Shown one piece after another: positions 11,647 to 40,801 of a stretch of 64,000 nucleotides of DNA. Under the pieces are notes generated by a model that did no database searches, was not told the origin of the DNA, and saw only the letters and a program-made list of their open reading frames with translations. Source of the DNA: Phormidium tenue FACHB-886 (GTDB lineage: Bacteria > Cyanobacteriota > Cyanobacteriia > Elainellales > Elainellaceae); the NCBI RefSeq assembly GCF_014764505.1, contig NZ_JACXWX010000005.1, positions 248,001-312,000 of the forward strand, written 5' to 3'. Made by a program: the position numbers and the translations under genes. Each line of letters opens with the position of its first letter. Position 1 is the first letter of the stretch.

Positions 11647-12570
11647 TTAGCTCAGCATTTTCACTGCCTTTCGCTTGGTTGCTTCACCCCGTCGATCGTA
11701 TCTGGCAGTAGTGGAAGGGTTCGAGTGCCCCATCAGCTGCTGCACCGTGGAGAGGTCGGCTCCAGCATCAAGTAGATCGCTGGCAAACGTTCGCCGCCAG
11801 TCGTGTGGGGTGTGCGCCTCTAGCTCTGCCTGACCGACTCGCTTGATTAAAATCGTCCGTACTGACTCATCGCTCATCCGCCGCTGCGTCATGTGTCCAG
11901 CTTTGTTGATGGGCAGAAACAGTGGGCCGGGTTGAGCGCCTCGCAGCTCCAGCCAGCGCTGCAGAGAGCCGATCGCCTCATCAGTTAGATAAACCTGTCT
12001 GTCTTTCCGTCCCTTACCGCTGCGAACCTTACAGCTAGATTCAGTGAGGTCTAGATCGCTCAGGTCTAAGCCGACCACTTCAAAACGTCGCAAACCCGAT
12101 CGCAGAATCCCCAGCAGCGCTGCATCTCTCATGCCTGCTGGTGACTCGTCCTCTAAGCAGGTCTGCATCAGTGCTGCCTGCTCATCTGCCGCGATCGATC
12201 GCCCGGTGGGGAGCTGCTGCGATTTGATATTTTTTACGTCCGCTGCCTGGTGATAGTCCTCAGCGGTCATCAGTCCCAACCGCCATGCTTCCCCCAGAAC
12301 CGATCGCAAGGCAGAGAGCATTCGATTTGCCGTAGCGGGTGCATAGTCTTCTTGCAGCTTGGCTCTGATGGCTGCGGTGTGGCGATAGCGCAACTGATGC
12401 CAAGTGAACTCGATCGCCGTCTGCCCCGTTGTAAGCCGGGCGATCTTCTCCAGCGCTTCACCCTGCACCCGTCTGGATTTGGGCGTGAGGCGCATGAGAT
12501 AGACCGCGACAGGATTGGTGTCGATAGCGGTTTTGGAAAGATCGGTTTGTTGGATGAGTAGCTGTGACAT
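11647..12570 (-). CDS. Tyrosine recombinase / integrase, 307 aa
   Basis: Site-specific recombinase of the XerC/phage integrase family. An N-terminal SAM-like DNA-binding domain (about residues 13-110) is followed by the catalytic domain with R161 (SGLRRFE), K186 (GKGRKDR), H256-D-W-R259, H282 (LMGHSN) and nucleophile Y291. All catalytic residues are present, so it should be active. It would integrate or excise the prophage, most likely at the tRNA-Arg gene whose 3' half lies at 47.68 kb, although the gene is far from that site. Confidence 0.9.
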   Translation of the reverse strand: MSQLLIQQTDLSKTAIDTNPVAVYLMRLTPKSRRVQGEALEKIARLTTGQTAIEFTWHQLRYRHTAAIRAKLQEDYAPATANRMLSALRSVLGEAWRLGLMTAEDYHQAADVKNIKSQQLPTGRSIAADEQAALMQTCLEDESPAGMRDAALLGILRSGLRRFEVVGLDLSDLDLTESSCKVRSGKGRKDRQVYLTDEAIGSLQRWLELRGAQPGPLFLPINKAGHMTQRRMSDESVRTILIKRVGQAELEAHTPHDWRRTFASDLLDAGADLSTVQQLMGHSNPSTTARYDRRGEATKRKAVKMLS

Positions 12571-13804: not shown

Positions 13805-14287
13805 ATGTCATCCGCCGATCGTTCTGTCGTCAAAGCTGAATATCTTAAATCTAATGACTCGATGGAGGCGATCGCCAAGCGGTTCGGCATCAGCGAGCGG
13901 ACTCTAATTCGCTGGTCGAAGGCTGACCCTGAAGGCGAGTGGACAGTGCTTCGGAAGGCGAAGACTATAGTTTCTGCACCCAAGCTGCAGGTGATCGATG
14001 GGGAGCTGCCTGCTAGAGAAAATCGGGTGCGCCGGTCTAGAGGGACGATCGATGAGCTAGAAATTATTGAGCTGGCGATCAGCGATCTCTCTGCCACGCT
14101 AGCGAGTGGGGAAACCGATAGCCGATCGCTGGGCAGCATCGCTGGGGCATTGGTGCGACTGCTGGAGTATCGCCGCAAGATTCAGCCTGCTACAGCAGCA
14201 GAGCTGGCAGAGCTAGTTTTGTCGCTAGGCATTTCGCCTACTGAATTTGTTTCTGAGTTGAAACAGCGGTGGCAACAAAGCGCGTAG
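13805..14287 (+). CDS. terS: Terminase small subunit-like protein, 160 aa
   Basis: An N-terminal helix-turn-helix (SMEAIAKRFGISERTLIRWSKAD) followed by a helical, probably oligomerising region is the usual layout of small terminases, which recognise phage DNA for packaging. It directly precedes and overlaps the large subunit gene by 19 bp. The ATG at 13805 is preferred; an in-frame TTG at 13793 is possible. Confidence 0.75.
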   Translation: MSSADRSVVKAEYLKSNDSMEAIAKRFGISERTLIRWSKADPEGEWTVLRKAKTIVSAPKLQVIDGELPARENRVRRSRGTIDELEIIELAISDLSATLASGETDSRSLGSIAGALVRLLEYRRKIQPATAAELAELVLSLGISPTEFVSELKQRWQQSA

Positions 14288-15735
14288 ATCGCAGGCAGGA
14301 ATTGATTGATGAACTGGAACTCCAGTTTGAGTTGAATCAGCCTGAGGAAGACGATTGCCCTCAGCCTCTAAGCTTTCGTGAATTTGTCGATCGCGTCTAT
14401 CCCAAGTACAAGTGGTATCATCACTGCGCTGTGCTGGCGAACGTACTGCAAGAGGTGGCAGACGGTAAGCGTAAGCGAGTCATGGTATTCATGCCGCCCA
14501 GAGCTGGGAAGTCGCAGCTCACCTCTAAGTTGTTTCCAGGCTATATGCTCTATCGCTACCCTGAGAAATGGGTGGGTTTATGCTCCTATGCAGCTGAGCT
14601 TGCCTATACTCTCAGCCGTGCCAGTCGGGATGCCTATCGGGAGATCGGCGGGCAGTTCAAAGATGATGCCAATGCCGTCAAGAACTGGGAGACGCTAGCA
14701 GGCGGCGGCTGTTGGGCAGCAGGTGTGGGCGGTGCAATTACGGGCAAAGGCTTTGGCTCAGTTGCGATCATCGATGACCCCTTGAAAAACGCAGAGGAAT
14801 CGCTGAGCGATCGCATCAAAGAAAAGCAGCGAGAATGGTACGGCTCCACGTTCTACACCCGAGCTGAACCAGAGGCAGCGATCGTGGTGGTGCAAACCCG
14901 ATGGGCAGAAGACGATCTCTCTGGCTGGCTGCTCTCACAAGAGTCAGAAGATGAGCCGGAGCACTGGCATGTGGTCAACTTTGAATCAATCAAAGAAGAA
15001 ACACCGCCGAAGTTTCCAGCCACCTGCACCGTTGAGCCAGACTGGCGATCGCCTGGTGAGGCACTCAACCCAGAGCGGTTTGATGTCAGTAAGCTCAACC
15101 GATTTAAGAAGCGGCTAGGCTCCTATTTCTTCAATGCGCTCTATCAGCAGCGACCTTCACCGCTAGAGGGCGAGCATTTCAAGCGCAACTGGTGGCAGTT
15201 TTACAGGCAGCCTCCAGCTCAGTTCGATCAGCTCATTCAATCCTGGGACTGTGCGTTTAAAGAAACCAAGTCCTCAGACTTTGTAGTGGGGCAAGTTTGG
15301 GGCAAAAAAGACGGCTACTTCTACCTGCTGCACCAAGTGCGCGATCGCATGGATATTAATGCAACACTGACCGCCATTCGCGCCCTATCTGCGAAGTATC
15401 CTAATGCCAACGCCAAACTAGTCGAGGATAAAGCCAACGGTTCAGCTGTGATCGACTTGCTCAAGCGTGAGATTCCAGGTTTAATTGCTGTGCAGCCAGA
15501 GGGCGGCAAATTGGTTAGAGCCGTGGCGATCGCGCCATTTGTGCAAGCGGGGAATGTGTTCTTGCCTGACCCATCGATCGCAGCTTGGGTAGGGCACTAT
15601 CTAGAAGAGTTTGCCACGTTCCCCAACGGCAAAAATGATGACCAGGTAGATAGTACCTCGCAGGCATTGAACTGGCTGCAATCGAATCAGGCGGGCTTCT
15701 GGGGAGTCACCGATGACGGTGGCTGGAGTTATTAA
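14269..15735 (+). CDS. terL: Terminase large subunit, 488 aa
   Basis: DNA-packaging motor and nuclease. The ATPase domain has Walker A P76-P-R-A-G-K81-S82 and Walker B VAIID169-D170. The C-terminal RNase-H-like nuclease has an aspartate after QSW (SWDCAFK), a central VEDKANG and the terminal NDDQVDSTSQAL motif, typical of Terminase_6-type C-termini. It starts at a GTG within terS. Its last 29 bp overlap a minus-strand gene, where the inverted capsid block begins. Confidence 0.92.
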   Translation: MATKRVDRRQELIDELELQFELNQPEEDDCPQPLSFREFVDRVYPKYKWYHHCAVLANVLQEVADGKRKRVMVFMPPRAGKSQLTSKLFPGYMLYRYPEKWVGLCSYAAELAYTLSRASRDAYREIGGQFKDDANAVKNWETLAGGGCWAAGVGGAITGKGFGSVAIIDDPLKNAEESLSDRIKEKQREWYGSTFYTRAEPEAAIVVVQTRWAEDDLSGWLLSQESEDEPEHWHVVNFESIKEETPPKFPATCTVEPDWRSPGEALNPERFDVSKLNRFKKRLGSYFFNALYQQRPSPLEGEHFKRNWWQFYRQPPAQFDQLIQSWDCAFKETKSSDFVVGQVWGKKDGYFYLLHQVRDRMDINATLTAIRALSAKYPNANAKLVEDKANGSAVIDLLKREIPGLIAVQPEGGKLVRAVAIAPFVQAGNVFLPDPSIAAWVGHYLEEFATFPNGKNDDQVDSTSQALNWLQSNQAGFWGVTDDGGWSY

Positions 15736-20387: not shown

Positions 20388-21857
20388 ATGCCCACGCCGC
20401 CCACCAACGATAAGACGCTACCCTCGTTTGTCAAACCCGCGCTGTTAGATGTCTTAGACGATCTGCAGCTCGTTTGGGACGTGTGGCATTCGCTCAAGGG
20501 CTGTAAGGCAGAGTATTTACCCCAAGAGGAGCGCGAACCGCCCAAAGCTTACACCAATCGCCTCAAGCGAACCAGATTCGACAATCGCTATACACCTGCG
20601 ATTAAAGGCTATGCAGGACTGCTCACCCAGTTCGCACTACTGGAGGATACTGCAGAGACGATCGCCTCCAATATCGAGAACATCGACCAGCAGGGCAATA
20701 GTCTCAAGGCGTTTCTGCTGCAGGCAGATGAGATGGTACTGCGAGATGGCGGCTGCGGAATTTTGGTAGAGTTCCCAATCGACCCCACAGACGAGACCGG
20801 AGAACCGCTGATCCAAAGCGCGGCAGATGAGCAAGAATTTGGGCTGCGTCCCTATGTGGTGCTGATCGATCGCCGCAATATCTTGAATTGGGATGTGAGT
20901 TATATCCAGGGCATTCCCGTGATTAATCGCGTCACGATCGCTGAGACGGTAGAAGTGCCTGATGGTGAATTTGGTTGCACAATGCGAACGCGCTATCGAG
21001 TGCTACGACCCGGTAGCTATCAAGTGTGGGAGCTGCAGCTGGTGCAGGGGCAGTGGATTAAGTATCTAGTAGACGAAGGGGTAACGAACCTCGATCGGGT
21101 GCCACTGATTTGGTATTCACTCAGCAAGGGTGAGCTGTTCAAAGGTTCTCTGCCCTTTCAGGACGTAGCTGAGCTGAACATCGAGCACTTCCAGAAGCGA
21201 TCGGAAAACAATGAGGTACTGCGGAAATGCAACCTGCCTGTGCCCGTGCGGAAGGGCTACCAGCGATCGCCAGAAGAGATAAAGAGCGGGGCAAAGCTGA
21301 CGATCGGACCTAACTCGCTGGTTGATGTGCCGGTGGATGGTGACTTTTATTTTGCTGAACCCACAGGGAACGCGATCGCCTCTACTCAGGCCAATATCAC
21401 AGCACTGGAAGAGGCGATCGACCGGTTGAGCTTAGCTTTCCTGACAGGAGGTGAAGCACAGAAGACGGCAACTGAAGTGATCATCGACTCTGCCCAGTGC
21501 CAAAGCTCATTGCAGAGCATGGCTGAGCGCAAAGCGAGCGCTGTGCAGCAGGTGTTTGAGTTCTGGACGCAGTACACGGGAGAGGAGGCGATCGGCGGTA
21601 TTGCCGTTGATGCCAAGGTGCTGAAGCTGCCTTCTTCGGCTCAAGATGTGCAGGTGATTCTAGATGCGATGGGCTTGAAGATTTCCAACAAGCTGGGCTT
21701 GCAGATGCTGTTAGAGCGGGGCTGGCTACCAGAGGAAACCGATTTAGAAGAAGAGCTGCAACTGATTGAAGAGGTGCAGCCTGCTCTTGCCACTGTTGAC
21801 AACAAACCTCTAGCATCCGGCAACCAAATCGATGAGGAAGCCGCCAATGCAGCCTGA
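20388..21857 (+). CDS. Portal protein (DUF4055-type), 489 aa
   Basis: The N-terminal block with the YTNRLKRTRFDNRYTPAIKGYAGLLTQF segment is characteristic of the DUF4055 portal family. The centre has the beta-rich wing, and the C-terminus is acidic. It forms the dodecameric vertex for DNA entry and tail attachment. On the plus strand, it is separated from terL by the inverted capsid block. Its end overlaps a small gene at 21847. Confidence 0.85.
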   Translation: MPTPPTNDKTLPSFVKPALLDVLDDLQLVWDVWHSLKGCKAEYLPQEEREPPKAYTNRLKRTRFDNRYTPAIKGYAGLLTQFALLEDTAETIASNIENIDQQGNSLKAFLLQADEMVLRDGGCGILVEFPIDPTDETGEPLIQSAADEQEFGLRPYVVLIDRRNILNWDVSYIQGIPVINRVTIAETVEVPDGEFGCTMRTRYRVLRPGSYQVWELQLVQGQWIKYLVDEGVTNLDRVPLIWYSLSKGELFKGSLPFQDVAELNIEHFQKRSENNEVLRKCNLPVPVRKGYQRSPEEIKSGAKLTIGPNSLVDVPVDGDFYFAEPTGNAIASTQANITALEEAIDRLSLAFLTGGEAQKTATEVIIDSAQCQSSLQSMAERKASAVQQVFEFWTQYTGEEAIGGIAVDAKVLKLPSSAQDVQVILDAMGLKISNKLGLQMLLERGWLPEETDLEEELQLIEEVQPALATVDNKPLASGNQIDEEAANAA

Positions 21858-26155: not shown

Positions 26156-26881
26156 ATGCCTACATATAATTCAAAAACAATTCTGACAGCAGGAACCAAG
26201 CTGTTTGTCGCGAAGCTGGCAGAGAACCAGCGCAAGCCTGTAGAGTACACCGTAACCAATACTGCAGCCGCAACGATCGGCGCTGATGAACTGACGCTGG
26301 ATGTCACAGGCGGCGATCTAGCAGCCGGAAAGAGCCTGTTTCTGGCTGCAGGTTTAGAACTGACTTATGGGACAACGCTGGTTGAAGTGGCGCTCGATAC
26401 GATCGTTCCCTTTGGTACAGCAACGGCGGTTCCGGTTGAGCCAGTTAAAGCCGCCGTGCCCGCCAGCACTGCTAGTCAGACCTATGCAATGCTTCCCCTG
26501 CTGGGCGTGACCGAAGCTAATCCCGGCAATGAATCACAGACCGAAGACATCACCAACTTCCTCTCTGGCTTTGGTCAAGAGATGAACGTGACAGGGATTA
26601 ACCGGAACTTCCAGGTGGGTGGCTTCAAGATCAAAGGCGATCGGGCAATGGATAACATTGTGATTCCGCTGTCAGCCAATGATGAGCGGGCAGGTGAGGA
26701 GATCTACGCCCTCCTACAGCTTGAGTCTGGCGATAAATTCCGGGGTGCAGCAAAGGTAAGCAGCTTGAACTTCGCCAACGGCGTGCGAGCTTCGGTCAAG
26801 TACAGCTTCCAGCTGATGATTCAGGGAACGAGCTACAAGTACGAAAACGGTGTGGCTTACGCTGAGACTGTTAACGCTTAG
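26156..26881 (+). CDS. Major tail tube protein, 241 aa
   Basis: Beta-rich protein with a helix in the C-terminal half. It lies immediately before the chaperone/tape-measure group, the position of the tube protein in siphophages. The central SQTEDITNFLSGFGQEM and NRNFQVGGFKIKGDRAMDNI patterns fit tube subunits. It would polymerise into the tail tube whose length the tape measure sets. Confidence 0.7.
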   Translation: MPTYNSKTILTAGTKLFVAKLAENQRKPVEYTVTNTAAATIGADELTLDVTGGDLAAGKSLFLAAGLELTYGTTLVEVALDTIVPFGTATAVPVEPVKAAVPASTASQTYAMLPLLGVTEANPGNESQTEDITNFLSGFGQEMNVTGINRNFQVGGFKIKGDRAMDNIVIPLSANDERAGEEIYALLQLESGDKFRGAAKVSSLNFANGVRASVKYSFQLMIQGTSYKYENGVAYAETVNA

Positions 26882-28506: not shown

Positions 28507-31500
28507 ATGGAAGGCGTCGATCTAGGCACATTGCTACTCACACTCGGGCTGAATACCGAGACCTACGATCGCGGACTAGAAAAAGCTCATGAAGACGCCC
28601 TCGAAACGGGCAAGGCTATTGAATCAGCGTTTCGTGGTCGCTCGAATCGCCTGCCTGAGCTAACCGTGCGGGTAAACGATCGGGCCCTCACCAAACTTAA
28701 CCAGCACTACGATCTCAAAGAGGATCACGCCAAGCGGCTGCAGCGATTTCTTAATGCCAACCCACTCACGCCCAGAGTTAACACCAGAGAGCTAGATGCC
28801 CTACCTGTGAAGCTGAGAACGCTTCAGAGCGAAGTGCAGCGCTTGAGCAACGTCAATGTAGTTGTGCGAGGTGCTGCACAGGTTTCTAGCCGAGCTGGCA
28901 CTCAAGTGATCAAGGTTGAGTCTGACACCAAAGCGCTTGCCCAAGGGTTCAAGGATGCCACCAAAGATTTAGGCGATGACATTGGCAAAGAGGTGCAGCG
29001 CGGCGTCAGGAAGGGCAACCAGAAAGGAATCACTGGAACTCTAACTAGTGCTGTCACTGCTGCACCCAAGGCAGTGTTACGCGGCTTTTATGAAGGTGTG
29101 GGCATCACCTATGCTGATCAGCTCACCCGTGGGTTTATCAGAGGCGTTGAGGGCAAGTTCAACACCTCGCTGCGACGCATTGGCGAGAATTCGGGAACGC
29201 AAATCCTCAACAAGGCTGAGCGAGTCGGGGACAAGCTTGCTCAAAAGTTGGGCTTGGGAGATAGCCTCAAAATTGCTGCTGGCAAGACTTCTAATGCGCT
29301 TAAAGAGATTATTCCAGCCAATGTTTTAGAGCAGCGGTTGGGCAGAGTGGAGACAGCGATCGCCAAGACGCTTGATGGAATGCTGGAGCTGAAGTCTACG
29401 GCTGAGCAGCTCCAGAATCTGGGCGGCGTTGGCAAAGCGCTGCAAGATGTTGCCGTTGTGCCAATCGAGGGCATCGACCAGCGCCGCAGCCGCAAACAGC
29501 AGCAGGCAGTAGAGCGAGTTAGGGCTAGGGCGGCTGAGATCGCGCCAACGCTGCCAGACTTACCCGCAGGGGCAACTTCGCTGAATATCGTCTCGGGCGG
29601 CTTCGCAGGCACAAGGGGCAAGTCTTCTGCATCGGTAGCCGATCGGGTCCGGCTCATGCTGGGCAGCGAGGCGGCGGTTGATTTTGTTGAGAACCAGGAA
29701 ACTGACACCTCTGCCAACATTGACAAGATGCCCAAGTGGGCAGGGCAGATTTTAGCCCGCTTTGGCAAGCAGAACGTAATGCAGGGCTTCAACCAGGATG
29801 CGATCGAAGCAGCCGCCAAAGCACTGGCATATCAACAGAAAGGGGCAAATTTACCCACCAATTTCATCGGCTATTCAGGCGGTGGCTATGTCGCCAAGGA
29901 AGCAACTGAGCTGCTGGGGCAGATGGGCATCCGCAGCAAAGGGGTGGGAATTGGCACGCCGCTGTTCGGCTTGACCGGAAAGGTGAGTGATAGCCAGTTC
30001 CGCGCCTACATGGGTGAGTCTGATCCACTCTCAAAGCTGGGTGGGATGCTTTCCGCACAGCAGCGCACTACTTCAGCAGGCAAGGCGCACAGGCTTTCAA
30101 ACTATTTAGGCGATCAGGGCTTTCAGAAAGAGCTTGGTCGATTTTTGGGCGTTGGTACCACCGGCGCTCAACCTGCCTCATTTGAGCTGCATGGGTTTGA
30201 AGATGAGTTAAACAACTTGGCAGGCGAACTGGGCGCTGTTCTAGGGGACAGCAATCAAACGCTGTTTTTCAAAAAGACCGGGCTGTACAAAGGCTACATT
30301 GAGCAGATCAAACAGCATCGCGCCAAACTCAATACGCTAATTGCCGATGCAATGGGCGATGTGGCAGAGCAGATCGAATCATACGACCAGGCGCTGGCAG
30401 ATGCCGAAGCACTGGTGAAGCAGGTATTCGGGGTGCAGGGTGAGATCGCCCCTGCGATTAAAGCAGGTGAGGCAAAGAAAACAGCGGTGCAAACTGCGGT
30501 GAATCCGCCGCCAGTAGCTGATGCCAAAGCTCAGAAACAGGCGATCGAACAGGCTGCCAAAACCACCAAACAAGCTACAGCGACCGATGCAGCCAAGACG
30601 AAGAAATTAGCAGAAGAAGCCCTTAAGCAAGCTAAAGATCAGCTCCAGCAGGCATACAACCAGCTCATCATTGATGGAGCTAAAGCGATCGGCATTGATT
30701 CAGTACGTGTTCCTCGGATCAGCGCTTCAGATATTCCATCCGCAGGCACTTACGATGCCATCAATAACAAAATCACACTGCCGACAGATAAAGCCCATCG
30801 TCTCACTATGGGAATGGGCAAGGATATTTCTAAGCTATCGCAGCACGAATTAGACAAGACCATTGCCGACCTCAGCACGATCGCCCATGAGTCATACCAC
30901 GCTTTTCAAGGTGGCTTCAGTGGGTTGAGTTCAACCGAACTGGTTACCCAAAATAAGAATTATGCTGACCTACCGCTAAGCGCTTCAGCAGACGCTCAGA
31001 AGCAGTTCCAACGGTTGAAGCGCGGCTCGATCAACACAATGGCGGGGCGCAGTACCGACACGTTTAGCAAAAACGCATCGCTGCAAAAGCTAGACGAAAA
31101 AACTCGCCAGCAGGCGATCGAGAACGTCCGTAAGCTAGAGCAGCAGGCGTATACATTCCAAGCGCAGTTCATGGCAGCGCTAGCGCAAGAGGCGAAGAAT
31201 GGTTCTCAAAGCGTTGCTCAGGCATTTGAAAAGTCGATCGCCGCTGTGGTGGCAGAACTGAAGCAGACGGCTGAGCAGGTGAAAGCGAAAGCGGCTGCAG
31301 TTGAAGTGAAGCCTGCTGAGATCGCAGCTGATACGTCAGGGCTACAGCAGGTCGAAGCGCAGCTCAATGCCTACACGGTTGAAATCCTCAAAGAGATTAG
31401 CCGCGTATCTGGACGAGGAACGCCGAAAGGTAAGAAGGCAGATATTGTTGACGATCTACTGAAGAACGTGAAGCCGGATTCGCTGAATGCTTCGATCGGT

Positions 31501-34500
31501 GCAGTAGAACCGCTGATTGAGCGCGGCGTGAAGGGCGGCATGAAGCTGCAGAAAGTGCAGTCCAGCGAAGCAGAGAGCAAAACGGTTGCCAATCTCAGCA
31601 AGGCAGAAAAGTCGCTGGCTAAACGGCTGGAGAAGCTGAAAGCGTTGCAGGGTGAAGCGTACGAGAAAGAGTTAGGGACGCTGCTGGATCTGATTAACCA
31701 GCAGATTGCCCAGCTCGACCAGTTTGGCGCGAAGACGATCGCCGCTGAAACGCGCCTTGCGTTAGGTCAGGGCAAGGGCAGGCTAGAAGCAACCTATCGC
31801 AGGCTATCGCCACAGCTCAAACCCAAGCCGCAATCTGCAGTTAGCCAAGCAGCGATCGTTGAGAATCCCTTTAGCCTGGATGACATCTCACTGGCGAGAG
31901 TCACGCAGCAGCAGGGCAAGCAGGTCGCTCGACAGGCGCTCAAGACCTACGAGGCAATTATTCGGAGCGTTGCTAAAGTCTCCGGGGCACAGATGAAGCC
32001 TGGTGATATGCCGCGCCTGGTGGTCGATAACGATCGCCTTAAAGCGTTGGGAGCCAAGGCGCTCTACAACATCAAGCAGAATCAAATTATTGTCGATGAA
32101 TCGATCGCCAAGATCCTTGAGCAGGGCGGTAAAGCGCTCGATGAGTATGCTGATGAGCTGAAAGACTTGGTGCACGAAGGCAGACATGCCGCTCAGTTTG
32201 GCTTTGGTTCTCTGTCGCTGAAGCAGATCGGCGCGGGCGCATCGAACGTGAACATGATCGATCCGCGCAACGTCTCACAAACCGCTAAATACTATGCGCT
32301 GCAAAGCGTGCAGGTAGCTAATCAGCAGGCAAGCGGGCTGCTAGGCGATCGGGCGAAGCGAGGCATCTATCGCACTGAAGCCGATGCTTATGCCTTTGAG
32401 CAATTTACGCCGCAAGTGCTGCAGCAGGCGAAGACAGAAGCCCAAAGACGTGGCAAGCCAGAGCAGCTCACGCGAGCCTACAAAGCTGCAACAGAAGCCC
32501 CAGCAGACGGGTTGGCAATGGTGGCACGGGTGGCAGCTAAAGCCAAAGACGTTGCTTCTGAAGGCGTTAAGGGACTGATCGAACAGTTCGTGATGGTTAA
32601 CCCAGCGGTCGGCGGTGTCCTTCAGAAGCTGATCGGGCAAGTGGGGAATGTGCCCAAAGCATTCCTCAAGTTTGGGGCGATCGCGCTGGTTGCCAAATTG
32701 GTGATCGACAACCTTGGCAGGATCGTTGGGGCAGCGCTCGACACTGCGATGGCAATGGAGAAGATGGGGCGGGGCTTCAAGTTTGCCTATGGTTCTGCTG
32801 CAGCGGGCAATCAGGCGATGCAGCAAGCCAGAGAGAGAGCAGATGATCTAGGGTTAGGCGTCATGCAGACTCTAGAAGGGCAGCAGCAGTTAGCGGGTGC
32901 GACGCGCGGTACGAAGCTAGAGGGCTTTTTGACAGACCGGATGGGGGCAGCGCTGGACCAAACGATCGCTGTCGGGGGTGCTGATAATGAATCAGCAGCA
33001 CGGGCACGGCGGGCAGTTAGCCAAATTGCTCAGAAGGGAACCGTTCAAGCCGAGGAACTCACTGGGCAGCTCTCTGAAGCGCTCAGCGGATTTCCAGTGC
33101 AGCAAATTGCTGCTCGAAGCATGGGCGTTGATCTGAGCGAGTTCATTGCCCGACGCGATCGCGGTGAGATTACCTCTGAAGAGTTTTTGCCAAAATTCCT
33201 GCAGCAGCTCCAGGCAGAAACCGCAGGCGGTGTGGGAGATGCCAAGAATTCATCGACAGCAATTCAGAACCGCTTTGGTAATGCTCAAGTTGAGGCGCAA
33301 GCAGCGATCGGGCAAACGCTCTTACCTGCTCAGAATGCCGGCTTGCAAGCGATGACAGCCGCACTGGAAACGGTGAACAAACTGCTGCCAATCACGATCG
33401 AACTGATTGCTGCTATGGGTGGGGCGGTCTTGGCTGGGCTAATTCAAAAGGTTGAATTGACAACGATCGCTACCAAGGGTTGGGCAGGCGCGACAGAACT
33501 GGCACAGGGTGCAGTGAAGGGGCTGAAAGGGTTCTTAACCCAGGATGCAATGGGCTTCGCTGGGGTGACGGTTGGCATCATGGGGGCGATCGAGCTAATC
33601 AAAGGCGTTGTAGCTGCTTTTGCTGATGCGGGGCAATCTTCACGTGACTTTGCTGACCAAACTCAAAAGAGCATCGATCGCTATCGCAAGGCGCTGGCAG
33701 AAGCACGTAACGAGAAGCCGCCAGAGCTACCAGGGGCAAGCAACCCAAATGCCGTTGCTGGGGACACGAAGGAGTCTTTTCTAGAGGGCTTCTTTGGACT
33801 AGGGGGACTGTTCGGCAAGGATAAAGTGCGAGCGCTGGAAAAGAATATCCTTGACAATCCCTTGGCAGGTTTTGGTGGCATGGGATCACTATTAACAGGC
33901 TTGCAGGCATCGGGTATGGCTCCTAAGTTCAACCTGCCTCGCTATGGCGAAGTTAAAGCGCAGCAGCAGCGCCTGGGAGAAGCCGAAGCGTTCAGCAAAG
34001 GTGGAGAAGTATTTGCCAGTCTCCAATCAGAAATCGAGCAATTCAAAACCAACGACCCCAACAGCGCGATCGCTAAACTTCGCAATGCCAACGAGCAGCT
34101 AGACGCGATCCAAGCACAGCGGCGTGGGTTGCGACCTGGTGATGTGGCAGGACGACGCAAGCTAGATGAACAGGAGCAAACAGCTCTAGCGCAACAATCT
34201 AGATTCCTGAACCCCGTCTCTGAGATGCAGGCAACAGCGGCTTCGCAGATCGAAAACTACAAAGCGATGATTAAATCGGCGCGAGAACGCGGCGATGAGG
34301 GGGCAGCCAAGCAATACGAGGGTGAGCTGAAACGAGCTATTACCCTTCAGGATCAGTTCAACTCGCTAATTGGCAAGCAGGGCGGCATTCTGCAAAGTCT
34401 TGCTTATAGCTACAGTGCAATTGTTGGCAAATTAGAGGATGCAAATCGGGCGCTTGAGAAGAGCGCGAATTCTGGAAAGAAGGCGATCGCTGCCTCCCAA

Positions 34501-36984
34501 ATTTCTGGCACCATGAGCAGCGGACAGGCAGATATCGCCCGCTCGCAGCTTGACCAGCAGAACATGCGCGGCAAGATGGGTGCTAATGCTCAAGCGATTC
34601 AGCAAATTGACAGCCAATTATCAGGCGAGCGATACACTAAGGCTCTAAATTCAATTGGGCTCGAATCCTTTGGAGATATGCCGATCGCCCAATTGCGTGA
34701 ACGAATCGGGCAGATGGATGAAAAGGGTGAAGACACAAGAGCGCTTAGTCAGGGTTTAGAGCAGTTTCAGAAACGTCAGGATCTAGATCTGGAAAATTCT
34801 GGACTAGAAACCTCGATCGAAGAGTCCAAAGCTCAGCTTGTGCAGCGCCTGCGCGACTTAGCCACCCAGATCAACGACTTCTATCGCGGCATTGCTCAGC
34901 AGGCACAGGAAACGCAGCTGCAGGCACAGCAGACGGCTCTACAGGCGAACACAGCACAGGGTCAGGCGAAGCTGAAGAATGCGATGGTCGGCTTTCAGGA
35001 AAGCTTCATCAACGATTACGTTGAGTCGCTCATCTCGCTGATCGACATCCTCAACAAGCCCAAGAATGACTTCCTGCAGGCGCAGCAGCAGCTATTGGGC
35101 GCACAGAACCAATACATGCAGCAGATTCAGCAGGCTTACCAAATGGGCCAGCAGCTACCTACAGCAGAGCAGGTTGCCGGAATGCCAGCAGGCGGTGGAG
35201 CGGCACAGATGCCGATGCTGACAGCAGCACAACCTGCTGGCACAACAGCACCAATAGCAGCACAATCTGTCATGCCAGCACAATCTGCTGCTGGTGCTGC
35301 CCAAATCCCTAGTATGACCCCACAGCAGTTCCTCGCCGGACTGCAAGGGTTGAGCCAAGCCAGCGGGCAGCAGTCTGTGGCATTTGGGCAGCAAGGCTTG
35401 GAATCTGCCATGACGCTAGCAGGGCAGACCTATGCCACTCAGCAGCAGTCGATCGCCACTCAGCTCCAAGCCCAATATCAGCAGGCGCAAGCTGAAGCCC
35501 GGATGCAGGGATCTAATCTGGACTATCAAGCGTTCCAGGCTGGACGGCGCATGGAGGACCAGGGGCGCACGTTTAGCCGCAGCGCTGAAGACCTGCAGGC
35601 GCGATCGCTGACTGAAACGCCAGAGGTACAGCAGCAGAGCACCCTACGCGGCATGAGTCGAGAGTTTGAAGACTCCATGCGATCGATGCAGGACTTCCAG
35701 CGGGGACTGCAAGCCACGCAGGACCAGGCGAGCGCGACGATCGGCGCAATTCGTGACGGGGTGAGCCAAGGGCTGTATCCAGAGTCGATGCTGCAACGGA
35801 TTCCCCAGCTGCAGCAGATGGCTGAATCTGCCCGGTCGCAGATGAACCAGCTACAGGGGACGATGGCTGAGTATGAGCAAGCTTATGCCGACGCGATCGC
35901 CAAGCAGCAGGAAGAGTTTGCCTATCAGGAACAGCGCCGCCGCCAGCAGGCACAAAGCCGCTTGGAGGGCATGAACTCATCGGTGCTGAGCGAACGTGCC
36001 AATGCAGCAAGGCTGGCAGGTCAGGGCAATGTGGCGAACGACCTGGAGTATCGCAATAAGGTAAATGCTGCTGGCAGCGAGTTCAGGAATACGATTGCTG
36101 AACTAGAAGAGATGAAGCGAAGGGGTGAGATCAATACCAATGAGTTCAAGCAAATGAAGGCAGCAGCAGAGGATCTGAACAATCTGAAGCTGGACAATGC
36201 CGCCGCTGAACTGGATAAACTCAACCGTGACAATCGCTTCGCTGCAAGGCAGCAGCAGGGCGGCTATGACAACGATCTGCTGCGGGCTAGAGCCGACGAG
36301 ATGCGAAGCCGCTATGGGGACGATTCTGGGGCAAAGCGATTGGAGAATAAAGCAGCGCAGCAGCAGCTAGGACGAGATCAAGAGCAGCAGCTCTATAACC
36401 TCCAGAAGCAAAAAGAAGCAGGTGAAATCACCACCGGTCAGTTCAATAAAATGAAGTCCACGCTTGAATCTACCGGCAAGATCAAGTTGGATGGCTTAAA
36501 GCGTGAGCTGTATAGCCTTGGGGACATTGCCCAATCTTCAACAGGTAAGTTAGTGCAGGTGGCGCGAGGGATGGAGCAAATTCAAGCCCTGCGGCAGGCT
36601 GACGATCTCATCAAGCAAGCGGGCGGCAGTACAAGGGCGTTGCTCAACACCTACAACATTCAGGGAGGTAATAATGCTTATCTGCGCGATGCGATCGGTG
36701 CTAGCAATCCGCTCGTTGCTAAGTTGGCAGAGTATGAAAAGCTCTCCAGCATGACGGGCAATGCATTTCAGGGCGAGTTAACGGCTCAATCTGTGGCTTC
36801 AGCAGTCGATCGGGGTAGTATCAACAGCTCTGCTGCTGTTGCGAAGCTGGATGAACTGCTGGGCGTGCTGCGGCAGAAGGCAGGCGGCATGACCGTGAAC
36901 ATCGAAAACATTGGGGCGATCGGCGATGCAGGCGATCTAATCAGCTCGATTAGCCAAGGCAACATGCGGGCAGCGGGCTTGTAG
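28507..36984 (+). CDS. Giant tape measure protein with embedded hydrolase-like and metallopeptidase-like domains, 2825 aa
   Basis: Sets tail length and is ejected with DNA. Residues ~1-350 are helical. About 370-560 contain an alpha/beta-hydrolase-like block with nucleophile elbow G455-Y-S457-G-G. Two related blocks follow: HESYH at 794-798 with E878 (ExxAY), and HEGRH at 1223-1227 with E1291, both HExxH...E (gluzincin-like) with a shared surrounding pattern. Hydrophobic segments occur near 1385-1415, 1628-1648 and 1681-1708. A TIGR02675-like tape-measure segment lies near 1510-1560. Long Gln/Ala/Glu coiled coils fill the C-terminal half, including two ~75-residue repeats near 2490-2665. It is far longer than most tape measures. 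Confidence 0.85.
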   Translation: MEGVDLGTLLLTLGLNTETYDRGLEKAHEDALETGKAIESAFRGRSNRLPELTVRVNDRALTKLNQHYDLKEDHAKRLQRFLNANPLTPRVNTRELDALPVKLRTLQSEVQRLSNVNVVVRGAAQVSSRAGTQVIKVESDTKALAQGFKDATKDLGDDIGKEVQRGVRKGNQKGITGTLTSAVTAAPKAVLRGFYEGVGITYADQLTRGFIRGVEGKFNTSLRRIGENSGTQILNKAERVGDKLAQKLGLGDSLKIAAGKTSNALKEIIPANVLEQRLGRVETAIAKTLDGMLELKSTAEQLQNLGGVGKALQDVAVVPIEGIDQRRSRKQQQAVERVRARAAEIAPTLPDLPAGATSLNIVSGGFAGTRGKSSASVADRVRLMLGSEAAVDFVENQETDTSANIDKMPKWAGQILARFGKQNVMQGFNQDAIEAAAKALAYQQKGANLPTNFIGYSGGGYVAKEATELLGQMGIRSKGVGIGTPLFGLTGKVSDSQFRAYMGESDPLSKLGGMLSAQQRTTSAGKAHRLSNYLGDQGFQKELGRFLGVGTTGAQPASFELHGFEDELNNLAGELGAVLGDSNQTLFFKKTGLYKGYIEQIKQHRAKLNTLIADAMGDVAEQIESYDQALADAEALVKQVFGVQGEIAPAIKAGEAKKTAVQTAVNPPPVADAKAQKQAIEQAAKTTKQATATDAAKTKKLAEEALKQAKDQLQQAYNQLIIDGAKAIGIDSVRVPRISASDIPSAGTYDAINNKITLPTDKAHRLTMGMGKDISKLSQHELDKTIADLSTIAHESYHAFQGGFSGLSSTELVTQNKNYADLPLSASADAQKQFQRLKRGSINTMAGRSTDTFSKNASLQKLDEKTRQQAIENVRKLEQQAYTFQAQFMAALAQEAKNGSQSVAQAFEKSIAAVVAELKQTAEQVKAKAAAVEVKPAEIAADTSGLQQVEAQLNAYTVEILKEISRVSGRGTPKGKKADIVDDLLKNVKPDSLNASIGAVEPLIERGVKGGMKLQKVQSSEAESKTVANLSKAEKSLAKRLEKLKALQGEAYEKELGTLLDLINQQIAQLDQFGAKTIAAETRLALGQGKGRLEATYRRLSPQLKPKPQSAVSQAAIVENPFSLDDISLARVTQQQGKQVARQALKTYEAIIRSVAKVSGAQMKPGDMPRLVVDNDRLKALGAKALYNIKQNQIIVDESIAKILEQGGKALDEYADELKDLVHEGRHAAQFGFGSLSLKQIGAGASNVNMIDPRNVSQTAKYYALQSVQVANQQASGLLGDRAKRGIYRTEADAYAFEQFTPQVLQQAKTEAQRRGKPEQLTRAYKAATEAPADGLAMVARVAAKAKDVASEGVKGLIEQFVMVNPAVGGVLQKLIGQVGNVPKAFLKFGAIALVAKLVIDNLGRIVGAALDTAMAMEKMGRGFKFAYGSAAAGNQAMQQARERADDLGLGVMQTLEGQQQLAGATRGTKLEGFLTDRMGAALDQTIAVGGADNESAARARRAVSQIAQKGTVQAEELTGQLSEALSGFPVQQIAARSMGVDLSEFIARRDRGEITSEEFLPKFLQQLQAETAGGVGDAKNSSTAIQNRFGNAQVEAQAAIGQTLLPAQNAGLQAMTAALETVNKLLPITIELIAAMGGAVLAGLIQKVELTTIATKGWAGATELAQGAVKGLKGFLTQDAMGFAGVTVGIMGAIELIKGVVAAFADAGQSSRDFADQTQKSIDRYRKALAEARNEKPPELPGASNPNAVAGDTKESFLEGFFGLGGLFGKDKVRALEKNILDNPLAGFGGMGSLLTGLQASGMAPKFNLPRYGEVKAQQQRLGEAEAFSKGGEVFASLQSEIEQFKTNDPNSAIAKLRNANEQLDAIQAQRRGLRPGDVAGRRKLDEQEQTALAQQSRFLNPVSEMQATAASQIENYKAMIKSARERGDEGAAKQYEGELKRAITLQDQFNSLIGKQGGILQSLAYSYSAIVGKLEDANRALEKSANSGKKAIAASQISGTMSSGQADIARSQLDQQNMRGKMGANAQAIQQIDSQLSGERYTKALNSIGLESFGDMPIAQLRERIGQMDEKGEDTRALSQGLEQFQKRQDLDLENSGLETSIEESKAQLVQRLRDLATQINDFYRGIAQQAQETQLQAQQTALQANTAQGQAKLKNAMVGFQESFINDYVESLISLIDILNKPKNDFLQAQQQLLGAQNQYMQQIQQAYQMGQQLPTAEQVAGMPAGGGAAQMPMLTAAQPAGTTAPIAAQSVMPAQSAAGAAQIPSMTPQQFLAGLQGLSQASGQQSVAFGQQGLESAMTLAGQTYATQQQSIATQLQAQYQQAQAEARMQGSNLDYQAFQAGRRMEDQGRTFSRSAEDLQARSLTETPEVQQQSTLRGMSREFEDSMRSMQDFQRGLQATQDQASATIGAIRDGVSQGLYPESMLQRIPQLQQMAESARSQMNQLQGTMAEYEQAYADAIAKQQEEFAYQEQRRRQQAQSRLEGMNSSVLSERANAARLAGQGNVANDLEYRNKVNAAGSEFRNTIAELEEMKRRGEINTNEFKQMKAAAEDLNNLKLDNAAAELDKLNRDNRFAARQQQGGYDNDLLRARADEMRSRYGDDSGAKRLENKAAQQQLGRDQEQQLYNLQKQKEAGEITTGQFNKMKSTLESTGKIKLDGLKRELYSLGDIAQSSTGKLVQVARGMEQIQALRQADDLIKQAGGSTRALLNTYNIQGGNNAYLRDAIGASNPLVAKLAEYEKLSSMTGNAFQGELTAQSVASAVDRGSINSSAAVAKLDELLGVLRQKAGGMTVNIENIGAIGDAGDLISSISQGNMRAAGL

Positions 36985-37582: not shown

Positions 37583-37833
37583 CCCGCGTACAACGCCGCA
37601 AAGCTAACAATCGCCTCACCGCTGAACAAGTTATTGAACTCCTGCAAGGCAGCAGCGAACAAGAGCCAAAATCAATTCAAGACCTGACAAGGGAAACGCA
37701 AAACACGCATAATCACGCCAGTTTGCGGAATCGACTTAATGAGCTGATGGCAGAAGGGTTAGTCGATCGTAAAGAGCAGTTCTTTCGCGGCAACCAGGTG
37801 CGCTGGGCTTACTGGCTTAAGTCGAGTTCTTAG
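37579..37833 (+). CDS. Winged-helix DNA-binding protein, 84 aa
   Basis: The pattern LTAEQVIELLQ..........SIQDLTRE...N..SLRNRLNELMAEGLVDRKEQFFRGNQVRWAYWL fits a small winged helix with a beta-wing at the end. A regulator in the middle of tail genes is unusual. Its last ~70 bp and the following ~60 bp recur in decayed form at 39394-39530, after the HEPN gene, so the cargo insertion touched this gene. Confidence 0.65.
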   Translation: MTRVQRRKANNRLTAEQVIELLQGSSEQEPKSIQDLTRETQNTHNHASLRNRLNELMAEGLVDRKEQFFRGNQVRWAYWLKSSS

Positions 37834-37911: not shown

Positions 37912-39282
37912 ATGACTATGGAAATCCAGCTAAGTAAAAGCGATCTCAAGACAGCCACGCAAAATTGGAACACTTTAGTAAATAGAAAAAATAAAAGTAA
38001 AAATTACTTTGTTCCTACTAGCCTTGAAGAACATGAGAAGGTTAGTAGAGACGCAGTTCGATTGAATATTGGTTGTGAACAGTGGGTTTTACTAGAAAAT
38101 GCAATAGCAGCATTTAAGGAAGTTATTAATAGAATTTACGATGCTCCTGGATTAAAAGAGGTAATATCTCGTGGAACAGTCTACATGCTTTTAACGAGGG
38201 AGTTAGAAGTAGAAATTTTCAACAGAGAAAAAGACTTACAAAATAAAAGAGAATTTGCTAGCACCTTAGAAAGTATTCAACGTTCTATCAATGAAAAAAT
38301 TAGTTATTTTGACTTCTTTTTTGTAGTTGAAGGGATGGAGCTAAAAGACCTTGAGAAAATTAGCTGTGGCAAAGTTGAAATCTTCATCTTTAATCAGCAG
38401 TTGCGGGATCAAATGGTTGCTGCTCATTTAGGGGCAGACGGTTTACAGGATTCACAAGCGTTAGCATTCACCCAGAATTTCTTTGATGAAAACTTCCTGA
38501 ATCGCGTCTGTGTAAGATCTACCGCCTATGGAGAATCTGATATTGCTCGGAAAAGAGCTTACAGGCAAGCCCGAGAGTTGATAAATTACTTCAGGTTTAC
38601 ACTCTGTATATTTATACATGAAAGAGTTTTTGAGCATTTGGTAAAAATAAATATTTCATTTGAAGCGTACAGCAATGATGAAAAAACTTTAACTAGAAGA
38701 GGCAAAGACAATGCCGTTATTTTAGGTTTTGGTCTCGGTCGTGAACCTCTACAAGATTTTTCTATTGATAGGAATCGCCTCGAAAATTTTTCTTCAAACG
38801 GCTTCCTGGATGATTTCACCGCAATTATTAATGCTTCTTCTCGGACACAGTTAGAAGGATGTATTTTGACTGCAATTCATTGGATAGGTGAAGCTCAAAA
38901 TGAATTTGACCTGGATGTATCTTTTCTAAAATATTGGACTGCATTGGAATGCATGTTTACTGTTTCTAATAACCCGACGGGCGATTTAGCCAAGGGAATC
39001 GCAACACTTAAGCTTTTTAGTGCTTATGAATTTACAAGTGTTGAAGATGCCAAAGAAGTTTATGAAGATGTGAAAGAACTTTATACCAAGCGTTCAAACA
39101 TCATTCATCGAGGTCTGAACTATTTAGCTGATCAAGTGATTAATGAGACCGACATTTCCAAGATATGTAGATATACGGCATGGAGTATCCTCAACTTGTT
39201 CCATTTACGCGCTGCTGGTCACACAAATATGCGGGAAGTTGGCGATCAAATCAACACATTGCATGAACAATGGAATGTTTAA
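37912..39282 (+). CDS. ApeA-like HEPN-domain protein, 456 aa
   Basis: Probable RNase-type defence or toxin protein. The C-terminal third ends with a HEPN-like block: KYWTALECMF helix (340-349) and R394-S-N-I-I-H399, the RX4H catalytic motif. The long N-terminal region lacks a known domain; the overall layout resembles ApeA-like HEPN proteins of anti-phage systems. The coding sequence is much more AT-rich than its neighbours and lacks CGATCG, a sign of recent transfer. It lies within the tail operon but is flanked by duplicated sequence and a terminator. Confidence 0.65.
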   Translation: MTMEIQLSKSDLKTATQNWNTLVNRKNKSKNYFVPTSLEEHEKVSRDAVRLNIGCEQWVLLENAIAAFKEVINRIYDAPGLKEVISRGTVYMLLTRELEVEIFNREKDLQNKREFASTLESIQRSINEKISYFDFFFVVEGMELKDLEKISCGKVEIFIFNQQLRDQMVAAHLGADGLQDSQALAFTQNFFDENFLNRVCVRSTAYGESDIARKRAYRQARELINYFRFTLCIFIHERVFEHLVKINISFEAYSNDEKTLTRRGKDNAVILGFGLGREPLQDFSIDRNRLENFSSNGFLDDFTAIINASSRTQLEGCILTAIHWIGEAQNEFDLDVSFLKYWTALECMFTVSNNPTGDLAKGIATLKLFSAYEFTSVEDAKEVYEDVKELYTKRSNIIHRGLNYLADQVINETDISKICRYTAWSILNLFHLRAAGHTNMREVGDQINTLHEQWNV

Positions 39283-39393: not shown

Positions 39394-39530
39394 CGTAAAG
39401 AGCAGCTTTTTCGGGAGAGCAGGTGCGCTGGGCTTACTGGCTGAAGTGAGGATATGTGATCGCGATCATTTGAAGATGTGACGAAGCTTCGGACGATTTG
39501 GGGCGATCGGCTTAGTATATGAGAAGTTTC
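39394..39530 (+). repeat. Direct repeat, copy B (decayed)
   Basis: Starts CGTAAAGAGCAG and follows copy A through TGACGAAGCTTC and GCGATCGGCTTAG, with substitutions and a one-base loss that breaks the winged-helix frame. It is therefore a dead fragment of the gene at 37579-37833. Confidence 0.75.
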
Positions 39531-39742: not shown

Positions 39743-40801
39743 ATGCCTATTCAGATTTCTCTTTTCAATCACAAAGGTGGAGTCAGCAAAACAACAACTA
39801 CGTTTAATTTAGGTTGGATGTTGGCTTTGAAAGGCAAGCGAGTTATACTTGCCGATTGCGATCCTCAGTGCAATTTGACTGGTATGGTGCTTGGTTTTAG
39901 AGGATCAGAGGAATTTGCAAAAATATATGAAGCGGAGGGTATACGCAATATTCGAGATGGGTTAATACCTGCATTTGAGTCGCGACCGTCTCCCATAGAG
40001 CCAGTTGTTTGTGAGGAAATATCCGGTCAACCTAATATGTTCTTGATTCCAGGACATATTGGTCTTGCTGAATACGAAGTCACCTTGGGAATTGCTCAAG
40101 AATTATCTGGCTCGCTAGTAACTTTACAAAATCTTCCTGGGTCAATAAACCATCTATTTAAAGTAACAGCGGATAAATACAACGCAGATTACATTCTTGT
40201 TGACATGAGTCCAAGTCTTGGTGCTATAAACCAAAACCTGCTTATGACCAGCGATTTTTTCTTGGTTCCGATGGCACCAGACTATTTTTCTGTAATGGCA
40301 ACAGATTCTCTTGCTTCTATATTACCTAAGTGGAAAGTTTGGTCACAACAAGCTCAAAATTCACCTGTTCTACAAAAGGCAACTTACCCTTTTCCATCAA
40401 TCTCACCAAGATTTTTAGGAACTGTTATTCAGAGATATCGCCTTAGAGGAGGAGATAAACCATCCAGTGCTTTTCAAAAATGGATAGATGAAATTGACCA
40501 GAGTGTTAAACAAAAATTAGTTCCTGCTCTAGATCAATGTAGGATGTTATTGCCGAACGAGGCTTACAGCAATATAGGCATTTCGCTTGGAGAACCATTG
40601 CTTCAGATGTCGGACTTTAATGGTCTTATTGCGCTTTCCCAAAAGCATAAAGTACCAATTTTTGATCTGAGCGATGCTCAATTAGAGCAGACTGGAATTG
40701 TTTTAGAGAGAACCAAAAGATCAATGGAACGATTCCATAGTTTGTATTCAGAAGGTGCCGACAGGGTTATCAACCTGATAACTTATGCAGAAAGCAATTA
40801 A
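39743..40801 (+). CDS. ParA-like (SIMIBI) ATPase, 352 aa
   Basis: Deviant Walker A K11-G-G-V-S-K16-T-T, second motif LADCDPQCNLT and a DMSPSLGAINQNLL motif are ParA/Soj-type. There is no ParB gene or centromere repeat nearby. Instead it overlaps a HEPN gene by 17 bp, so a defence-type pair is likelier than partition. AT-rich and free of CGATCG, unlike the phage genes. Upstream, 210 bp after copy B show no gene. Function in sensing or regulating the HEPN partner is inference. Confidence 0.8.
   Translation: MPIQISLFNHKGGVSKTTTTFNLGWMLALKGKRVILADCDPQCNLTGMVLGFRGSEEFAKIYEAEGIRNIRDGLIPAFESRPSPIEPVVCEEISGQPNMFLIPGHIGLAEYEVTLGIAQELSGSLVTLQNLPGSINHLFKVTADKYNADYILVDMSPSLGAINQNLLMTSDFFLVPMAPDYFSVMATDSLASILPKWKVWSQQAQNSPVLQKATYPFPSISPRFLGTVIQRYRLRGGDKPSSAFQKWIDEIDQSVKQKLVPALDQCRMLLPNEAYSNIGISLGEPLLQMSDFNGLIALSQKHKVPIFDLSDAQLEQTGIVLERTKRSMERFHSLYSEGADRVINLITYAESN

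Follow-up and report, generated by a model that had tools for sequence, protein, structure and literature searches.

Tape measure proteins may carry a wall-hydrolase domain at their C-terminus, as described in excerpts of a review (PMC9863714), and in Thermus phage P23-45 the giant tape measure gp96 (5002 aa) has an RNA polymerase fused on its N-terminal side, for which action at the tape pore has been proposed (excerpts of PMC10770324). Among the polyvalent proteins of phages, conjugative elements and plasmids, zincin metallopeptidases are the commonest domain, with domain release or an effector role proposed, and the same excerpts describe MuF head proteins fused to likely effectors that are delivered into the host (PMC5512222). 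Tape measures that carry enzymes and injected proteins that carry zincins are already known, each on its own. Here, we describe a giant prophage tape measure protein in which a lipase-like alpha/beta-hydrolase domain and two zincin domains lie before the tape core. On balance, we favor a role for this protein as a carrier of virion-loaded enzymes, whereby the hydrolase and the two zincins would be delivered, and the zincin at the cargo/tape junction would release the cargo.

A giant tape measure frame and its prophage setting

The window, the whole 64,000-nucleotide stretch of DNA that was analyzed (G000:C201:248001-312000), belongs to an 8.9 Mb host genome that we take to be cyanobacterial; another genome, G027, is placed in the same family by the tool's grouping. 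The prophage spans roughly 10-48 kb of the window. A tRNA scan of the window found none, and the search of the window for an attachment repeat at the prophage ends gave no convincing one. The genes of the setting, and the parts of the tape measure that lie outside the enzyme domains, are:

11647-12570 (-), integrase
14269-15735, terminase, upstream of the tape measure
20388-21857, portal, upstream of the tape measure
26156-26881, weak major-tail-protein match, upstream of the tape measure
28507..36984 (+), giant tape measure protein, 2825 aa (single ATG open frame; TMP_3; PHROG 2335)
28519..29343 (+), N-terminal tape-measure segment, residues 5-279 (shared by homology among 13 of the 17 frames that hold both a module and TMP_3, its own included)
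32650..32706 (+), hydrophobic segment, residues 1382-1400, between cargo and tape core, membrane-helix-like (hydropathy only)
32734..33354 (+), TMP_3 core, residues 1410-1616 (TMP_3 profile)
33379..33447 (+), hydrophobic segment, residues 1625-1647 (hydropathy only)
33556..33624 (+), hydrophobic segment, residues 1684-1706 (hydropathy only)
from 48402, host-type genes (alpha-amylase, SepF)

On sequence grounds, the 2825-aa frame is a tape measure protein: it matches TMP_3 (PF20155) at 69.6 and 69.3 bits, above the curated cut-off of 41, and lies in a tail gene cluster. It also matches the tape measure family PHROG 2335 (1e-13). A Pfam scan of the whole protein listed SHOCT alone above cut-off and missed TMP_3, so that the silence of that scan means little, and it was repeated in pieces covering the protein; no further family rose above cut-off in these. 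The protein contains 12 His and no Cys, and its last 1496 residues are without His. Five of the 12 His (H528, H794, H798, H1223 and H1227) belong to the predicted catalytic sets discussed below.

Several other features of this region were noted. The SHOCT short-domain match, at about residues 2530-2552 of the tape measure, scored 28 bits against a cut-off of 27 in the whole protein, over two stretches, and 24.5 in its piece alone. Downstream of the tape measure, a near-perfect (96%) 28-nt direct repeat (37795-37822 and 39420-39447) flanks a 456-aa frame (37912-39282), and a ParA-like protein follows at 39743-40801 (PHROG 164, 1.6e-42).

Lipase-like and zincin domains before the tape core

The preliminary description had read a nucleophile elbow and two related metal sites from the letters of the DNA, and all five motifs were found where it had placed them. 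The domains and their predicted catalytic positions are:

29557..30207 (+), alpha/beta-hydrolase (lipase/esterase-like) domain, residues 351-567 (family HMM, AF2 model, PDB matches)
29869..29883 (+), nucleophile elbow GYSGG, residues 455-459, with Ser457 (motif and conservation)
30022..30024 (+), predicted catalytic Asp506 (invariant in alignments A1 and A5)
30088..30090 (+), predicted catalytic His528 (invariant in alignments A1 and A5)
30610..31248 (+), upstream zincin domain, residues 702-914 (profile, alignment)
30886..30900 (+), HESYH, residues 794-798 (motif)
31138..31152 (+), EQQAY, residues 878-882, predicted third metal ligand Glu878 (motif and conservation)
31900..32484 (+), junction zincin domain, residues 1132-1326, ending 84 residues before TMP_3 (AF2, VIA-align, profile)
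32173..32187 (+), HEGRH, residues 1223-1227 (motif)
32377..32391 (+), EADAY, residues 1291-1295, predicted third metal ligand Glu1291 (motif and conservation)

Model and alignments agree that residues 351-567 are an alpha/beta-hydrolase fold with the Ser-Asp-His order. The elbow seen earlier is completed to a triad by Asp506 and His528, and homologues, residue conservation and predicted fold are in accord. The set Gly455-Ser457-Gly459-Asp506-His528 is complete in 22 of 25 aligned rows, some of them near-duplicates (L044, L045 and L046 are close to one another), and is among the best-conserved columns. The three incomplete rows are the third copy in gp048 of phage CL131, which has lost the Ser, gp047 of the same phage, where the match stops before the His, and a piece of a broken gene in L046. 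In the AlphaFold2 model (11 rows; pLDDT 78.9, pTM 0.80), Ser457 terminates a strand that leads into a helix. Foldseek matched this model to 35 PDB chains at E<=0.001, led by TesA thioesterase, an alpha/beta serine hydrolase, lipases and cutinases, and the best 50 rows of VIA-align, esterases and lipases, gave Z 12.1-13.6 with 155-182 residues aligned and an rmsd of 3.0-4.9. The predicted activity is probably that of a lipase, esterase or thioesterase.

Profile comparison shows the two zincin domains to be homologues of one another. The set H-E-H..E..AY is complete in 15 of 16 rows, both window domains included, and is among the best-conserved columns; L034 is the exception, and the rows are partly non-independent, the junction copies of L038 and L039 being nearly identical. 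AlphaFold2 predicts for the junction zincin (13 rows; pLDDT 87.6, pTM 0.83) a long N-terminal helix, three strands, the HExxH helix and a long helix carrying Glu1291. This succession of a helix, a sheet of three strands, the HExxH helix and the helix with the Glu agrees with how excerpts of PMC5512222 describe zincins. Foldseek found no match to the junction zincin model at E<=0.001 (best E 0.67 in PDB and 0.046 in BFVD). In VIA-align, the first 12 rows were ERAP1, aminopeptidase N, anthrax lethal factor and PprI, the best being ERAP1 (Z 5.4, rmsd 3.5, 104 aligned); non-zincins are present from row 13 on, and VgrG2b, IrrE, collagenase and ArdC appear there among unrelated helical chains. Several lethal factor rows align at lethal factor residues 49-229, presumably its non-catalytic domain, and the absence of a family from the VIA-align lists does not count against it. 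The gluzincin type proposed earlier agrees with HExxH, with the downstream Glu and with the best structural rows, M1 aminopeptidases and lethal factor, which we take to be of the gluzincin clan MA(E), although Z does not exceed 5.4. For the zincin, identity is argued from the motif, from the secondary structure of the model and from the rows of VIA-align, and it is less firmly established than that of the hydrolase.

Chance origin was considered for each motif. HExxH occurs exactly twice in the tape measure, where 0.003 occurrences are expected from composition, which rules out a chance origin of the pair. GxSxG alone is weak evidence, with 1.4 occurrences expected by chance in the protein and a second one at 2418; a chance origin of the GYSGG elbow is ruled out by the Asp and His conserved alongside it. 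ExxA[YFW] is found additionally at 1825 and 2469. The predicted folds of the hydrolase and zincin domains are not coiled coil, and the H, E and S residues are kept in the nearest homologues found, of up to 42% identity (lipase) and 40% (zincin), the two outcomes that the preliminary description had named as speaking against its reading having failed to appear.

The Pfam family nearest to the zincins is DUF6782 (PF20573), a "putative metallopeptidase" that is zincin-like with HExxH, as are the window domains. A cargo segment of one relative (L023) reaches 30.9 against a cut-off of 27 in total score, with no single stretch at E<0.01, and matches at E<=1 occur in four of eight members, the best at 2e-4. 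In contrast, the window junction copy is not among these, nor does the whole window protein match. DUF6782 is mentioned nowhere in the open-access literature searched, a scope that excludes preprints.

Elsewhere in the same genome (G000:C113, L097:10039-13152, minus strand), a 1038-aa protein carries HELTH near its N-terminus, in a region that we take to be DUF4157-like, and HEMIH C-terminally, with a DUF6782 match of 31.3 bits over its C-terminal part. A 510-aa neighbor carries HELTH and HEQTH. These two proteins are possibly effectors of a contractile injection system.

Distribution and arrangement of the modules

A search with residues 330-1360 gave matches in 3 of the 36 genomes of the family and in 11 of the 388 of the class, its own genome included. 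With profiles, the zincin was found in 11 of the 388 class genomes and the lipase in 18, nine of these strong. Among the 23 lipase places listed, 11 with weak matches (E 3.3e-10 to 9.8e-6) were excluded from the counts; ten of the 11 cover the elbow region only, and these weak places look like general alpha/beta hydrolases. Virus contigs hold seven zincin loci and eight lipase loci, with two of the contigs turning up for both domains, and three loci were confirmed in named cyanobacterial genomes. TMP_3 is present in 19 of the 20 genomes or records examined. Searched as a single sequence, residues 330-1360 had no match among viral contigs, phages and plasmids, a relative's zincin found no match in phages, and a relative's lipase none in plasmids; matches came with alignments or, against phages, with a relative's lipase pair. 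Homologues of the lipase and zincin were aligned at about 20-42% identity.

Twenty-three frames hold a module, a count that excludes five duplicate loci (L035, L036, L043, L047 and L048) and virus-contig frames shorter than 400 aa. TMP_3 is also present in 17 of them, and the modules lie N-terminal to it in all 17. The module content varies:

Lipase and two zincins: the window
Lipase and one zincin: L022, L024, L037
Two zincins: L023, L038, L039
One zincin: L025, L040, L041
Two lipases: L029, L042
One lipase: L027, L028, L031, L032
Degenerate zincin: L034

Of the six module frames without TMP_3, one is the N-terminal frame of L025, whose tape measure is split. Tape measure regions split into two or three frames were seen in L025, between its two zincins, and in L042, after TMP_3; these are either real gene splits or sequence errors. 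A Rho_N-like stretch was noted in the cargo of L037 at about residue 1076 (25.5-26 bits against 24.9) and, below cut-off, in the cargo region of L036; Pfam scans in pieces found none in the window tape measure.

Eight junction zincins end 61-220 residues before TMP_3 and group together in the tree (support 81/86), and six upstream zincins group apart (86/84), support that is moderate in both cases and below the tool's starred threshold.

The lipase family is also found on head proteins. Lipase and Phage_Mu_F share one intact frame in G003 (L026), G190 (L030) and L045, and a broken frame in L046; in L044 and L049 each lies on a frame of its own, with about 0.5 and 1.9 kb between them. In G003, the MuF-lipase protein also matches ART-PolyVal weakly (E 1.7e-3; 19.6 bits, cut-off 31.2).

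The lipase family extends to an isolated phage, Aphanizomenon phage CL131 (MG209611.1, L094:13439-26299), in which gp048 holds three lipase copies, one without the catalytic Ser, and gp047 a partial copy. Both genes, annotated as hypothetical, lie directly upstream of the tape measure gene gp049. In Pfam, gp048 exceeds the cut-off for Lipase_3 with a single stretch (24.8 against 22); for DUF676 (34 against 20.3) and DUF900 it does so with the summed score of several stretches. Excerpts of PMC6293099 give the CL131 virion proteome as 23 proteins, identified by LC-MS/MS.

Not every copy appears to have kept its active site. Of the 17 zincin matches across the class, HExxH and ExxAY are both kept in 11; the other six are without HExxH, and five of these read EExxH; most of the HExxH-less alignments stop before the Glu motif. 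They sit in other giant frames (G284, G321, G250, G212 and G157; L060-L063, L068 and L069). Judged by these residues, this distant branch is probably not a peptidase, and its members may have undergone loss of activity or alteration of the metal site. Together with the Ser-less lipase of CL131, the six matches predict that some copies are not catalytic.

Proposed delivery and comparison with known systems

How might such a protein work? We suggest that the enzymes, which follow the N-terminal segment and precede the TMP_3/hydrophobic tape core, would be loaded with the tape into the virion. During infection, the tape would exit the tail and its hydrophobic part would enter the cell envelope as a DNA channel, bringing the N-terminal cargo to the inner face of the envelope or into the cytoplasm. 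There, the junction zincin would probably cut the cargo free, a release function suggested by the recurrent position of one zincin group at the cargo/tape junction, and the hydrolase and upstream zincin could target host lipids, or else acylated molecules or proteins. The lumen of a tail tube would not readily accommodate a folded hydrolase, so that packaging is a step that cargo delivery leaves unexplained.

The enzyme identities given in the preliminary description are supported, and its view that they help ejected DNA cross the cyanobacterial envelope is the main rival to effector cargo and the less favored of the two. Here, the lipase would locally hydrolyze lipids of the outer or inner membrane while the zincins trim envelope or sheath proteins. 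We regard this as rather unlikely, even though the tape measure acts at the envelope, wall-hydrolase domains are described in tape measures (excerpts of PMC9863714), a lipase plus proteases would suit a membrane-rich, protein-coated envelope, and the window protein has hydrophobic segments after its cargo. All 17 frames place the modules on the N-terminal side of the tape core, whereas the wall hydrolase in the excerpted review is C-terminal (PMC9863714), and no wall-hydrolase family (lysozyme, M23, NlpC/P60 or similar) was found in the window tape measure by Pfam scans, whole and in pieces. The occurrence of the lipase family on MuF head proteins likewise counts against envelope crossing and points to effectors rather than drilling tools.

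An improbable alternative makes the zincins maturation enzymes that would act on tape or tail proteins as the particle is assembled, with the cargo removed before or during tail completion. One zincin does lie at the junction, and excerpts of PMC5512222 report that DdrB of phage P1 is processed before packaging, with autoproteolysis driven by an MPTase proposed. However, this leaves the hydrolase and its occurrence on MuF proteins unexplained, and no zincin was found in L027, L028, L029, L031, L032 or L042. It is harder still to credit that the folds are non-catalytic scaffolds, kept for binding or stability with inherited but unused motifs: the zincin branch without HExxH and the lipase copy without Ser would fit, but the catalytic columns are among the best conserved at about 20-42% identity.

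Returning to the carrier role, a bolder extension, which we offer as a tentative possibility, is that the tape measure is a reloadable multi-enzyme warhead in cyanobacterial phages and prophages. Variable numbers of lipases and zincins would be slotted in after the N-terminal segment and before the tape core and freed by the junction zincin after ejection, the lipase module would be exchanged with the capsid-borne MuF route, and a single pool of injected effectors could be loaded at either the tail or the head. If this holds, the tape measure would be a general cargo carrier in these phages, beyond a ruler and pore former, and the lipase and protease modules would be candidate early-infection effectors against cyanobacteria. 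The junction protease would then offer a concrete handle on how tails carry and release folded enzymes, and unannotated cyanophage genes, gp048 of the isolated phage CL131 included, would gain a predicted function.

Compared with known systems, the hydrolase shares its fold and Ser-Asp-His order with minimal alpha/beta hydrolases such as cutinase and Bacillus LipA, but is only about 9-17% identical to them in the structural rows listed, and the sole Pfam match of the window lipase copy is below cut-off. We considered whether the P23-45 tape measure shares the window metallopeptidase and ruled this out, since it has no HExxH and matches neither the lipase nor the zincin profile; the local sequence of its own metallopeptidase resembles what we take to be M23 wall peptidases. 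Like the window protein, P23-45 gp96 is a giant tape measure with an enzyme on its N-terminal side (excerpts of PMC10770324), but its cargo is an RNA polymerase and its metallopeptidase is without HExxH. No report of an alpha/beta-hydrolase or HExxH zincin on a tape measure was found among the open-access literature matches listed (preprints and most subscription journals lie outside this scope), and "tape measure", "lipase" and "hydrolase fold" do not occur in the main text of PMC5512222. The polyvalent proteins are likewise large and multidomain with zincins (excerpts of PMC5512222), for which 12 MPTase clades are described; the window protein differs in having a tape measure as carrier and in its serine hydrolase. 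Its three enzyme-like domains, all on one polypeptide, would be delivered with the DNA. A parallel for the lipase is offered by MuF-type head proteins with effector domains (excerpts of PMC5512222; PMC5576092): relatives fuse the same lipase family to Phage_Mu_F, whereas the window copy rides on a tape measure.
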